Source: Planctomycetia bacterium (lineage in GTDB: Bacteria; Planctomycetota; UBA1135; UBA2386). From it: DNA of 35,401 nucleotides. The notes below the pieces were generated by a model. That model was given only the letters and a program-made list of their open reading frames with translations, ran no database searches and had not been told where the DNA came from. A program made the position numbers and the translations under genes. The stretch is from NCBI GenBank assembly GCA_005776365.1, contig SXPK01000082.1, forward strand, positions 1 to 35,401, written 5' to 3'. Shown in pieces: positions 22,511 through 27,229 of the stretch (positions within the stretch are counted from its first letter, which is position 1; every line of letters starts with the position of its first letter).

Positions 22511-22537
22511 GCGGCGGGCGCATGTCGCGCCGCCGCC
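22510..22537. terminator. Strong GC hairpin between convergent genes (no clear T-tract)
   Basis: GGCGGCG-g-GCGC-atgtc-GCGC-CGCCGCC: 11 bp stem with one bulged G. Confidence 0.5.
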
Positions 22538-22548
22538 GGTCAAAGCTC

Positions 22549-23541
22549 CTACTTGCCCTTGAGGTCGTCGCGCATCGCGGCCGCCTTCTGCGCGGCCTGC
22601 GAGCCGGACCACTTCTTGGTGTTCGCAAACTTGTCGAGCTCCTCAGCAAGCTTGCGGCGTTGCGCGAGCCTTGTGGGGTCGAACTTGGCGATCACCTTGT
22701 CGAGCGCCTTCTGCGCGGCGAGTTCGTCTTGGATGCGTTCGTCCTTGGCGAAGCGATCGAGCTCGGCCTTGGCGGAATCGGCGGGCGCAAGACCAGCCCA
22801 TTCCTTCTGCATCCGGAGGAGCGCCTTCTCGGCCGAGCCATAGTCCGGCCCCTTGCCGAGCTCGGCAACGCGCGCGACCTGACGGTCGAGACGCTTTTGC
22901 AGATCGGCCTGTTGGGTTTCGTAGACCGCCTTCGTCTCGGCGTCGAGATCAGGAGCCTGCATCGCCTTGCCGAGGTGATCCTGGAGCTTCTTGTGCTCTT
23001 TCTTCGCCCACAACGAGCGCAGCACATCGTACTTGGCGTCGGCTGGCAGTTTGGGGCCGAGCACCACGTTCTTGAGCTGCTCCTCGATGAAGCTCTCTGC
23101 GGGCTCGCGATCCTTGGGCACGGTCAGAACGGTGCCGTCCGGTGCGATGCAGTAGATGCTCGGGAAGAAGCCGATGGCGTAGAGCTCGTTCACCCCCTTG
23201 GCGGTGATGAACGGATACTTCGCGCCGAGCTTCGTGATGAAGGTCTCCTCGATCAGCTTTTCGTTCTCATCGGACACGCCGATGAGCAGCAGCCCCCGAT
23301 CCTTGAACTTCTCGTAGAGAGAGTTCAGGTGCGGGACGGCTGCCTTGCAGGGGCCTCACCAGGTCTGCGCGAAATCGAGCATGACGAGCTTGCCGTCGAG
23401 CTCGTCGAACTTGGTCGGGCCGTCGTTCCACGCCTTCTGGATCTCGAAGGACGGGGCAATCGAGCCCTTTGCCAGTTGCGCGGGCAGAGCGCTCGCGAAC
23501 AGCACGGCCGCGGCGGCGGCGAGGATTTTGGGTTGGTTCAT
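22549..23541 (-). CDS. Exported thioredoxin/TlpA-like protein with in-frame TGA (candidate selenocysteine) at 23356-23358
   Basis: MNQPKILAAAAAVLFASALPAQLAKGSIAPSFEIQKAWNDGPTKFDELDGKLVMLDFAQTW[TGA]GPCKAAVPHLNSLYEKFKDRGLLLIGVSDENEK...; both halves in the same frame, joined only by the TGA. Confidence 0.85.
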
Positions 23542-23704
23542 GGGAATGGATGCGTCCAAGACGCGCATCGGAGCGTAGCGAGGCCCGGACCCAGACCAAG
23601 ACCTGCGTCGCGCTGATGGCAAGGATGGGACGAGGCTCTCTCTGTCATCTATTCCGAATGGCCCGCCCCTGATCGGCTGTGAAGCTATGCTTCCGCGCCA
23701 TTTC

Positions 23705-26700
23705 ATGAGCTCCGTATTCGACCCTCTGGAACGCCAGGAGCGCTTCCCCATCCTCCGGACCCTCAAGAGCAGGGCCCTCGTCTTCGACGGTGGCATGGGC
23801 ACGATGATTCAGCGCGCCTCGCTGAAGCTGGAGGACTTCGACGGCAAAGAAGGCTGCAACGAGATTCTCGTCCGCACGCGGCCCGATGTGATCGAGAGCA
23901 TCCACGCCGCCTACTTCGCAGCGGGCGCGGACGTCGTCGAGACCAACACCTTTGGCGGCCAGCCTTATGTGCTCGCGGAGTTCGACCTCGGCCAGGAGTC
24001 GTTTGAGCTCAACAAAATGGGTGCAGCGCTCGCGCGTCGAGTCGCGGACCGATTCAGCACGAAGGACCATCCCCGCTTCGTCTCCGGCTCGATCGGACCG
24101 GGGACGCGGCTGGCCACCCTTGGGCATATCTCCGGCGAGGAGCTGTATCAGGCCTACCGCACGTTCGCGAAGGGCCTGATCGTCGGCGGCGCCGATTGCC
24201 TCAACATCGAGACCTGCCAGGACCTATTGCAGGTGAAACTCTCGATCCTGGCAGCGCGCGACGCGATGGCCGAGGTCGGACGCGAAGTGCCGATCTTCTG
24301 CACGGTGACGATCGAAACGACGGGCACGATGCTCGTCGGCAGCGATGTCGGCGCGGCGCTCACGACCCTGGAGCACTTGCCGGTCGATGTGGTTGGCATC
24401 AACTGCGCGACTGGGCCGGATCTCATGCAGGAGTCGGTGCGTCACCTCGGCAAGCACTCGACGCGCCCGGTCATGGTGATGCCCAATGCGGGATTGCCAC
24501 GCAACGTCGGCGGCGTCGCGGTTTACGACCTGACCCCGGAAGAACTGGGCCAATACCACGCGCGCTTCGTGCGCGAGTTTGGCGTCGGCATCGTCGGTGG
24601 TTGTTGCGGCACGACGCCGGAGCACGTCGCGGCGGTCGCCAAGGCGGTCTTGGGCCTGGTCCCCGTCGAGCGGCCGCGGGATTACCTGCCGCAGGTGGCG
24701 AGCCTGTTCCATTCGGTGCCGCTGTCCCAAGACTCTGGCCCGTTGCTGATCGGCGAGCGGACCAATGCGAACGGCAGCAAAAAGTTTCGCGAGCTGATGC
24801 TGGCGCAGGACATCGAAGGCATGTTGCAGGTCGCCAAGGAGCAGACGCACGAGGGCGCGCACGTGCTCGACGTCTGCACCGCCTATGTCGGCCGCGACGA
24901 GATCGCAGACATGACGGGCCTGCTGCGACCGCTGGTTCAGAAGGTCACCGCGCCGGTCATGATCGACAGCACCCAGCTCGATGTCGTCGAGGCCGCGCTG
25001 AAGGTCACGCCCGGCCGCGCGATCATCAATTCGATCAACCTCGAAGACGGCGAAGGCCGTGCTGACGCGCTGTGCAGGCTGGCTGTCCGCTACGGCGCGA
25101 TGTTCGTCGCTCTGACGATCGACGAAGAAGGCATGGCCAAGACCGCGCAGCGGAAGCTCGAAGTCGCCAAGCGCATTCACGACATCGTCGTTCACCGTCA
25201 CGGCATGAAGCCGCAGGACCTGATCTTCGACCCGCTGACGTTCACGATCGGCTCGGGCGACGAGGCGTCGCGCGACGCGGGTAGCCAGACGCTCGAGGGC
25301 ATCAAGCTCATCAAGCAGAACATCCCGGGCGTTCGCACGATCCTCGGCTTGTCCAACATCAGCTTCGGCCTCGACCCCTATGCCCGGCAGATCCTCAATT
25401 CGGTCTACCTAGCCGAAGCGATCCGGCATGGCCTCGATTCGGCCATCGTGCACGCGAGCAAGATCGTCCCGCTCGCCAAGCTCGAGCCTGGGGACCGCGA
25501 GGTCACGCTCGATCTGATCTACGATCGGCGCCGCGAGGGCTACGACCCGCTGTTCCAGTTCATCGCTCGCTTCTCGGGCAGCAAGAAGATCGACTTCGGC
25601 AAGGGCAAGGACGAGATGTCGATGCCAGTCGAGGAGCGGCTCAAGCAGCGCATCATCGACGGCAACAAGCTCGGGATCGAAAAGCACCTCGACGAGGCAA
25701 TGCAGAAGCACAAGCCGCTCGAGATCATCAACGAGATCCTGCTCGACGGCATGAAGGTGGTCGGTGACCTCTTCGGCAGCGGCGAGATGCAGCTGCCCTT
25801 CGTGCTCCAGAGCGCCGAGGCGATGAAGGCCGCGGTTGCCTACTTGCAGAAGTTCATGGAGAAGCTCGAGGGCGATGGCAAGGGCACGATGGTGCTCGCG
25901 ACGGTGCGCGGCGACGTGCACGACATCGGCAAGAACTTGGTCGACATCGTCGTCAGCAACAACGGCTATCGCGTCGTCAATCTCGGCATCAAGGTGCCTG
26001 TCGATCAGATCATCGAGGCGGCCAAGGCGGAGAATGCCACGGCCATCGGCATGAGCGGCCTGCTCGTGAAATCGACGGTCGTGATGAAGGAGAGCCTGGA
26101 GATCATGAGTCAGCGAGGCATCGCAACGCCGGTGATCTGCGGTGGCGCTGCGCTCAATCGCGCCTACGTCGAACAAGACCTCAGCGCCGCGTATACGACG
26201 GGCCCGGTCTACTACGGCCAGGACGCCTTCTCCGGACTGCGCATCATGGACGAGTTGACCGGCCGCACGAAGGTCGCGACGGTCACCCAGTCTGTCGAGC
26301 CGCGGCAACGCGCGACGAATCGCCGTTACTTGACGCGCGCCGACAAGGAGAAGCTGCTCGAGCACGCGTTCCACGAGTATGCCGACAGTGGCGTCGAACG
26401 GGCCGAGCGCGTGCCGCCGGCGCCCTTCTGGGGCCCACAAATCGTCGGCCCCGAAGAACTCGACCTCGGCACGGTCCTACAGTACGTCAACAAGAAGGCG
26501 TTGTTCCGCCTGCAGTGGCAATACAAGCAAGGCAAGCGCACGGACGAGGAGTACGCCAAGTTCGCAGCCGCTCATGTCGAGCCGCGCTTCCGAGATTGGC
26601 TCAAGCGCGTGCGTGAGGAGAAGACGCTCGAACCGCGCGTCGTCTACGGCTGGTGGCCGTGCTACTCGGAGCGCAATTCCCTCGTCGTGCTGGCCCCCAA

Positions 26701-27229
26701 CGACCACGGCAAGGAACTGTGCAGGTTCGACTTCCCGCGCCAACCGGGCGGGCGCCGCTTGTGTCTCGCGGACTTCTTTCGTCGAAAGAACGACGGGCCG
26801 GACATCGTCGGCTTTTCGCTCGTCACGATGGGCGCGGTGGCGACGCGCGAGAGCGATCGTCTGTTCAAGGCCGATCGTTACGACGACTACCTGCACTTCC
26901 ACGGCATCGCGGTCGAAGGCGCGGAAGCGTTGGCGGAATACTGGCACAAGCGCATGCGTCAGCAACTCGGCATTGCGGCCCAGGACTCGACGGTCATCGA
27001 CGAGTTGTTCAAGCAGCGCTACCAGGGCAGTCGCTACTCGTTTGGCTACCCGGCCTGCCCAAACATCGAGGACCAGGAGAAGTTGTTGCGCCTGCTCGAT
27101 GCGTCGCGCATCGGCGTGACACTCAGCGAGGAGTTCCAGCTCGTCCCCGAGCAGAGCACTTCTGCTGTGATCTGCCACCACCCGGCCGCGAAGTACTTCA
27201 ACGTCAGCGTCACCAATCCGACGATCTGA
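23705..27229 (+). CDS. metH: Cobalamin-dependent methionine synthase
   Basis: VFDGGMGTMIQ, VGGCCGTTPEH, LLIGERTNANGSKKFRELM, MVLATVRGDVHDIGKNLVDIVVSNNGY, RYSFGYPACPNIEDQEKL; alternative start 23687. Confidence 0.97.
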   Translation: MSSVFDPLERQERFPILRTLKSRALVFDGGMGTMIQRASLKLEDFDGKEGCNEILVRTRPDVIESIHAAYFAAGADVVETNTFGGQPYVLAEFDLGQESFELNKMGAALARRVADRFSTKDHPRFVSGSIGPGTRLATLGHISGEELYQAYRTFAKGLIVGGADCLNIETCQDLLQVKLSILAARDAMAEVGREVPIFCTVTIETTGTMLVGSDVGAALTTLEHLPVDVVGINCATGPDLMQESVRHLGKHSTRPVMVMPNAGLPRNVGGVAVYDLTPEELGQYHARFVREFGVGIVGGCCGTTPEHVAAVAKAVLGLVPVERPRDYLPQVASLFHSVPLSQDSGPLLIGERTNANGSKKFRELMLAQDIEGMLQVAKEQTHEGAHVLDVCTAYVGRDEIADMTGLLRPLVQKVTAPVMIDSTQLDVVEAALKVTPGRAIINSINLEDGEGRADALCRLAVRYGAMFVALTIDEEGMAKTAQRKLEVAKRIHDIVVHRHGMKPQDLIFDPLTFTIGSGDEASRDAGSQTLEGIKLIKQNIPGVRTILGLSNISFGLDPYARQILNSVYLAEAIRHGLDSAIVHASKIVPLAKLEPGDREVTLDLIYDRRREGYDPLFQFIARFSGSKKIDFGKGKDEMSMPVEERLKQRIIDGNKLGIEKHLDEAMQKHKPLEIINEILLDGMKVVGDLFGSGEMQLPFVLQSAEAMKAAVAYLQKFMEKLEGDGKGTMVLATVRGDVHDIGKNLVDIVVSNNGYRVVNLGIKVPVDQIIEAAKAENATAIGMSGLLVKSTVVMKESLEIMSQRGIATPVICGGAALNRAYVEQDLSAAYTTGPVYYGQDAFSGLRIMDELTGRTKVATVTQSVEPRQRATNRRYLTRADKEKLLEHAFHEYADSGVERAERVPPAPFWGPQIVGPEELDLGTVLQYVNKKALFRLQWQYKQGKRTDEEYAKFAAAHVEPRFRDWLKRVREEKTLEPRVVYGWWPCYSERNSLVVLAPNDHGKELCRFDFPRQPGGRRLCLADFFRRKNDGPDIVGFSLVTMGAVATRESDRLFKADRYDDYLHFHGIAVEGAEALAEYWHKRMRQQLGIAAQDSTVIDELFKQRYQGSRYSFGYPACPNIEDQEKLLRLLDASRIGVTLSEEFQLVPEQSTSAVICHHPAAKYFNVSVTNPTI

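Follow-up and report, generated by a model that had tools for sequence, protein, structure and literature searches.

A thioredoxin-like selenoprotein gene family of Planctomycetota with a candidate SECIS hairpin 77 nt beyond the UGA codon

In a 35,401-nt stretch of planctomycete DNA (contig SXPK01000082.1; hereafter, the window), an in-frame TGA occupies the place of the first cysteine of a W-C-G-P-C thioredoxin motif. The window is one contig of a 3.66-Mb planctomycete MAG that is 65% complete. Is this codon translated as selenocysteine (Sec), and which RNA element would then direct its decoding? A preliminary description, made from the letters alone, had proposed a selenoprotein. We found its reading of the minus strand to be exact, with TGA at 23358..23356 within GAT TTC GCG CAG ACC TGG TGA GGC CCC TGC AAG GCA. 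The open frame with a signal peptide and a thioredoxin fold that it described around the codon also stands: when TGA is read as Sec, the product has 330 residues, 61 ahead of Sec62 and 268 behind it, and the Pfam matches exceed their cut-offs, the signal peptide being read by eye. The features discussed below are as follows.

22549..23541, minus strand: predicted selenoprotein gene, with ATG at 23541, Sec codon at 23358..23356 and TAG at 22551..22549; 330 residues.
23356..23358, minus strand: UGA codon for Sec62, replacing the first Cys of W-C-G-P-C; TGA in 28/28 family members; of the 132 homologs sampled, 109 have TGA and 17 have Cys.
23476..23541, minus strand: predicted signal peptide, about residues 1-22, a hydrophobic N-terminus ending in ALPAQ; boundaries read by eye without a predictor, periplasmic export inferred.
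23068..23469, minus strand: thioredoxin-fold (ResA/TlpA-like) domain, about residues 25-158, from Pfam, NCBIfam ResA (residues 22-158), ResA structures in the PDB, and AlphaFold2 with Foldseek.
22552..23037, minus strand: all-helical C-terminal extension, residues 169-330, from AlphaFold2 (whole-model mean pLDDT 90.6).
23266..23286, minus strand: hairpin B, candidate SelB-binding SECIS, CUCAUCGG / CGUGU / CCGAUGAG, loop at 23278..23274; intact in 28/28 family members, with covariation, and found in 70/109 Sec genes versus 0/23 non-Sec genes.
23288..23344, minus strand: helix A, a long imperfect stem between the UGA and hairpin B (nt ~14-25 paired with ~61-70, counting the T of TGA as 0), from minimum-energy folds; enriched only in genes with hairpin B, complete in 17/22 orthologs.

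The 28 family homologs, which were fetched as TGA-bearing matches of the window's protein, share start, TGA and end with the window gene. In each of them the TGA falls in the W-U-G-P-C column, and the gene begins and ends with ordinary start and stop codons, the stop often being TGA itself. The nearest named relative carrying the gene is the uncultured planctomycete Erken-D3_bin-1231 (87% identity). For the part behind the TGA, comparison with the nearest relative gives a dN/dS of 0.105. At the order level, 127 of 154 genomes match the family profile, with exactly one TGA in most of the matches listed; in a phylum sample of 392 genomes, matches at E <= 1e-35 occur in 139, mostly with one TGA. 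The 28 homologs and 100 further loci were then read, giving 109 homologs with Sec, 17 with Cys and 6 of other kinds (132 in total). Cys-type loci were fetched deliberately, so this split gives no estimate of frequency. An in-frame UGA aligned with the redox Cys of homologs, as expected of a selenoprotein, is thus found in a single column (109 TGA, 17 Cys). Because all 28 family members, whose genomes were assembled separately, show the TGA in that column, as do most homologs of the phylum, the comparison confirms that it is neither a product of chance nor a sequencing error, the former having already been doubted in the preliminary description.

A selenoprotein gene is also expected to be accompanied by selC, selD, selA and selB, and this is met in the window's genome, selA and selB being present only as contig-edge fragments. 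The tRNA-Sec scores 77.2 bits, above the gathering score, and is called SeC(tca) by ARAGORN; selD scores 346 bits, above cut-off, and carries its own in-frame TGA at the Cys/Sec site (ASSSG-U-AAKLPPGSL; contig C76, L052:543-545). The fragments of selA (model positions 288-454) and selB (model positions 86-346 and 542-579) lie near contig starts and score below cut-off. Among 34 family genomes, tRNA-Sec was found in 29, SelD in 32 and SelB above cut-off in 31, and SelD has one in-frame TGA in 31 of the 32 genomes having it and none in the remaining one. In that exception, SelD has Cys at the Sec site and its SECIS codons are altered. The machinery, the TGA or Cys in the homologous column and the purifying selection downstream all support the initial selenoprotein reading; the conserved UGA and the machinery are established by comparison. 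On this sequence evidence we regard it as nearly certain that the gene encodes a selenoprotein; Sec itself has not been directly shown, there being no biochemical evidence.

Other readings of the UGA fare poorly. If it simply terminated translation, the downstream part would be dead or a separate gene with an internal start, and the downstream frame does offer a GTG start (22549..23277, 242 aa). Yet the TGA has been kept in more than 100 homologs, the downstream dN/dS is that of a sequence under selection (0.105), termination would cut the thioredoxin fold within its active site, and the Cys homologs run continuously through the Sec column, which leaves an ordinary stop or a pseudogene hardly tenable. 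Genome-wide reassignment of UGA to Trp or Gly, or unspecific readthrough, would equally place one UGA at a sense position, but TGA is a genuine stop in most genes of the family, the homologs hold Cys rather than Trp or Gly in the column, and tRNA-Sec is present; we give this explanation next to no credence. The same applies to the plus-strand frame at 22522..23616, which the preliminary description pointed out as a possible miscall. It does exist, open over 364 aa, but it is broken in 11/28 homologs, with three stops in the one from the same genus, and is therefore a shadow ORF; moreover, it is the minus-strand frame that carries the thioredoxin-fold matches and whose start and stop are conserved. 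A gene caller that takes UGA as a stop would return truncated versions of these Sec genes.

The predicted signal peptide, read by eye, is MNQPKILAAAAAVLFASALPAQ, and A21 and Q22 are nearly invariant in this region of the 28 family homologs. The protein matches the Pfam families AhpC-TSA (50.9 bits), Redoxin (38) and Thioredoxin_8 (32.6), all above cut-off, and NCBIfam ResA (NF002854) with 79.5 bits over residues 22-158, below the 170-bit cut-off. The AlphaFold2 model (mean pLDDT 90.6) has a thioredoxin fold to about residue 158, followed by an all-helical domain at 169-329. Foldseek matched the thioredoxin part to ResA structures (TM-score by target about 0.75-0.81, alignments of about 135-180 columns among the hits shown) and left the helical domain without a clear match. 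The C-terminal extension had been taken for an unusual architecture; it is instead a confidently predicted all-helical domain common to the family. C65 and P127 are invariant in the 28 homologs, and we read P127 as the conserved cis-Pro position. With a thioredoxin fold, UxxC and, on our assignment of P127, the cis-Pro position, the protein meets the requirements for membership in the ResA/TlpA-like thioredoxin superfamily. We infer a periplasmic ResA/TlpA-like thiol-disulfide oxidoreductase of Planctomycetota, both chemistry and export being inferred, in which Sec62 would act as the attacking nucleophile of U-G-P-C, with Cys65 as its resolving residue.

Several genes around or related to this one were also noted. 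The divergent neighbour (23687..27229, plus strand, 1180 aa) resembles, judged by eye from its sequence, cobalamin-dependent methionine synthase (MetH). In one genome (G018), the Sec gene is directly preceded by a paralog (L031:445-1377) in which neither the two active-site residues (GTADGSG) nor the hairpin survive, and other inactive paralogs occur at loci L047, L159, L164, L165 and L178.

The preliminary description had proposed to look for a SECIS-like structure within about 60 nt after the TGA. It is not there; the conserved hairpin spans nt 72-92, counting the T of TGA as 0. Neither single-sequence folds nor RNAalifold gave a conserved hairpin in the first 60 nt after the UGA, and a G-loop hairpin of at least 5 bp within 13-37 nt was found in only 1/28 family genes and was absent from the window gene. 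A canonical SECIS within 60 nt was rejected on these inconsistent folds and the single hit of the scan, and helix A's own loop, considered as a SECIS, was rejected for having no conserved G.

The distal hairpin, hairpin B (CUCAUCGG-CGUGU-CCGAUGAG), has 7 bp and a loop at 80-84, 77 nt beyond the UGA. Its loop reads CGUG[U/A] in 28/28 family members, and all seven inner pairs are kept in 28/28, against a mean of 1.7/28 and a maximum of 6/28 in 500 draws of synonymous-codon resampling. It lies where synonymous constraint is highest, at codons +18 to +29. In 22 orthologs the peak falls in windows whose first codon is +15 to +24 relative to the UGA, with observed/expected codon identity up to 1.76. 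Pair 75-89 occurs as AU, GC or CG and pair 77-87 as CG, UA or GC, and neither is ever broken. In the alignment of all 28 members, which was not selected for the hairpin and is the one used as covariation evidence, 11 cells are changed on both sides of the stem, a number reached in 0/500 shuffles, and sliding the partner arm destroys the pairing. A second alignment, preselected for the hairpin, gave 100% pairing and was discounted. Where Asp (GAT/GAC) becomes Asn or Ser, with first base A, the Ile/Val codon on the other arm changes its third base from C to U; pairing in the predicted hairpin explains this synonymous change. Judged by the bSECIS model, hairpin B has the stem, the short apical loop and the G in the first two positions, and fails the requirement for a loop 16-37 nt from the UGA. 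In E. coli, SelB contacts G23 and U24 of the SECIS (PMC8659212), and the loop of hairpin B retains this G-U. Rfam gave nothing near threshold in the region. When a covariance model of the distal element was run on 34 genomes, the strong matches (64-110 bits) all fell in this gene family; the remaining ones scored below 44 bits, and those whose coordinates we matched belong to other TlpA-like genes. These genomes yielded no second, unrelated gene with the element.

Across the 132 homologs, we called hairpin B where at least 7 bp enclosed a loop with GU at positions two and three. It is present in 70/109 Sec genes, where 5 would be expected and 200 draws never gave more than 10, and in 0/23 Cys or other homologs (Fisher 2e-9, a p value inflated by relatedness). 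At the same site, 3/17 Cys homologs have a 7-8 bp stem without the GU loop. The Cys/other label changes 12 times on the tree, and hence the association does not stem from a single event. Hairpin B and its link to Sec are thereby established comparatively. In the Sec genes without it, the canonical site is usually taken by a strong G-loop hairpin, for example CAGGUG-GGU-CACCUG, CCUCGUGC-AGUU-GCACGAGG, GGGUGC-CGUGCC-GCACCU or UCCCGCACCU-GGUCG-AGGUGUGGGG. The two forms are near-exclusive (p=3e-10): 65 of the 109 Sec genes have the distal one only, 25 the proximal one only, 5 both and 14 neither, the last by strict criteria, some of them having one mismatch or a shorter stem. Among the assigned genes, a quick maximum-likelihood tree implies at least 8 switches between distal and proximal forms, an approximate figure since many inner branches are weakly supported. 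One locus (L154:269-364) has a proximal hairpin with a CGUGCC loop as well as the distal one, and is possibly an intermediate in such a switch.

In the minimum-energy fold of most distal-type genes, nt ~14-26 pair with ~58-71 to form helix A, directly before hairpin B. Its ten pairs are complete in 17/22 close orthologs, where 0.1 would be expected. Expected helix A pairs number 9.3 in 59 distal-type genes versus 4.0 in synonymous shuffles, 1.2 versus 2.1 in 17 Sec genes without hairpin B, and 3.7 versus 2.5 in 13 non-Sec homologs. The register drifts, and helix A appears neither in the consensus of 70 sequences nor in the best fold of several genes. About 11 nt lie under the ribosome (PMC4513850), and the E. 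coli core hairpin begins 11 nt after the UGA (PMC8659212), which is about where helix A starts. Because of these positions, and since hairpin B follows directly, we lean toward helix A being a spacer that folds up the stretch between the UGA and hairpin B; this remains an inference.

Could helix A itself be the SECIS of a true Sec protein, with hairpin B a separate RNA element acting, for instance, in pausing? Helix A is stable, begins at the canonical place and has its apical loop about 36-39 nt after the UGA. That loop, however, lacks a conserved G or GU, whereas the loop of hairpin B is CGUG[UA] in 28/28; it is hairpin B that is always kept in the 28 family members and lost in Cys homologs, and we consider this alternative improbable. 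It is also conceivable that Sec is inserted without a dedicated near element, or with a proximal one too irregular for our scan, hairpin B merely reflecting protein and codon constraint. The protein motif IGV[ST][DN]E does favour part of the stem, and atypical bacterial SECIS elements are on record (PMC13188914). Nevertheless, the synonymous null yields only 1.7/28 and 5/109, and synonymous third-base changes follow first-base changes on the opposite arm, and we consider this alternative very improbable. We therefore retain hairpin B as the likeliest SECIS of the Sec gene and hold this assignment with considerable confidence; binding of SelB to it is inferred and lacks biochemical evidence.

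Other selenoprotein genes of these genomes have their hairpins close to the UGA. The hairpin of selD is conserved and places its loop 26 nt past the UGA. Another TlpA-like family of selenoproteins (DFWG.WUGPCRAMIPHERSLV; loci L061, L065, L066, L068-L075 and L078-L080 in the family genomes) keeps CACGAGC-GGUC-GCUCGUG without variation as a canonical SECIS, the loop being 31 nt past the UGA. Since proximal SECIS elements thus occur alongside the distal one in these genomes, their decoding system is ordinary and the distal element is not due to an odd one. We also observed a frame with two in-frame UGAs about 140 codons apart, VWU[SG]PC and HGPGU.WC (L062:492 and 906, L063:596 and 1016, and L064 on the minus strand), which looks like a double-Sec thioredoxin-like protein with a proximal hairpin at each UGA.

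In the model that we propose, UGA62 would be decoded by SelB carrying Sec-tRNA-Sec. SelB would be recruited by the NGU loop of hairpin B, 77 nt after the UGA, instead of a hairpin at 16-37 nt. Helix A, starting about 11 nt after the UGA and just outside the ribosome, would fold most of the intervening stretch and so place hairpin B where a canonical SECIS sits. We assign a probability of roughly 0.83 to this model as a whole, that is, a Sec62 oxidoreductase, recruitment of SelB by the distal hairpin and helix A as spacer; the recruitment, the spacer role and the enzyme chemistry are inferred. Against it stand the lack of biochemical evidence, the 14 Sec genes with neither element, the protein motif that favours part of the stem, the drifting register of helix A and a distance of 77 nt, outside every published bacterial range that we found. 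It also seems probable, with more reservation, that these genes define a bacterial SECIS class of their own. Its element would be bipartite and about 90 nt long, made of a variable helix folding the spacer and a hairpin that presents its NGU loop 77 nt beyond the UGA, and would have been exchanged at least 8 times with the proximal form in one Planctomycetota gene family whose genomes use proximal elements in other selenoprotein genes. If this holds, a concrete and statistically supported distal class is available, together with a natural comparison of distal, proximal and Cys forms within one protein family; SelB reaching the ribosome from a distance becomes testable, and a rule for detecting missed selenoproteins is at hand. 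It would also suggest that Planctomycetota use selenium widely in their exported redox proteins.

We found no report of a distal bacterial SECIS within the open-access library searched. According to the 2026 review PMC13188914, the bSECIS model puts the apical loop of most elements at 16-37 nt from the UGA, some bacterial elements misfit the model and distinct classes must exist; the passages on exceptions that we read there do not describe a distal one. Reviews restate this 16-37 nt rule (PMC13188914, PMC10778597). Like the bSECIS consensus, as given in PMC13188914, hairpin B forms a small stem-loop inside the coding sequence, downstream of the UGA; its apical loop is short and has a G in the first two positions followed by U. 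At 19 nt, it is near the 17-nt core of E. coli fdhF (PMC8659212). Unlike that consensus, its loop lies at 77 nt rather than 16-37, a long helix intervenes, and no bulged U was identified.

The window's genome resembles the planctomycetes P1 and P2 in decoding Sec, for which PMC4807772 gives fdhA and fmdB as main-text examples. The closest sequences and folds to the protein are those of ResA/TlpA/CcmG (DsbE) (NF002854 with 79.5 bits; PDB 4nmu, 1st9), from which it differs by Sec in place of the first Cys, a score below the 170-bit ResA cut-off and the extra C-terminal domain. No curated NCBIfam model that fits or is specific to its group was found. NF041054 (ResA-like WAxxUGC_long) also describes a ResA-like selenoprotein, of similar model length (354 positions), but with WAxxUGC where the window protein has WUGPC, and the latter scores 23.6 bits against a cut-off of 300. 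Thioredoxin-like selenoproteins with UxxC are known, namely a Prx-like thiol:disulfide oxidoreductase (PF00578) and a thiol-disulfide isomerase-like protein (cd02966), tabulated in PMC13188914 and first reported in PMC1088965. The window protein shares with them the thioredoxin fold, Sec at the first Cys of CxxC and PF00578 above cut-off; it departs from them in its signal peptide, its helical C-terminal domain of about 160 residues, the family-wide Sec in a planctomycete lineage and the putative distal SECIS. The protein is thus a new member of the known UxxC thioredoxin-like kind, and what is new is the proposed SECIS architecture.
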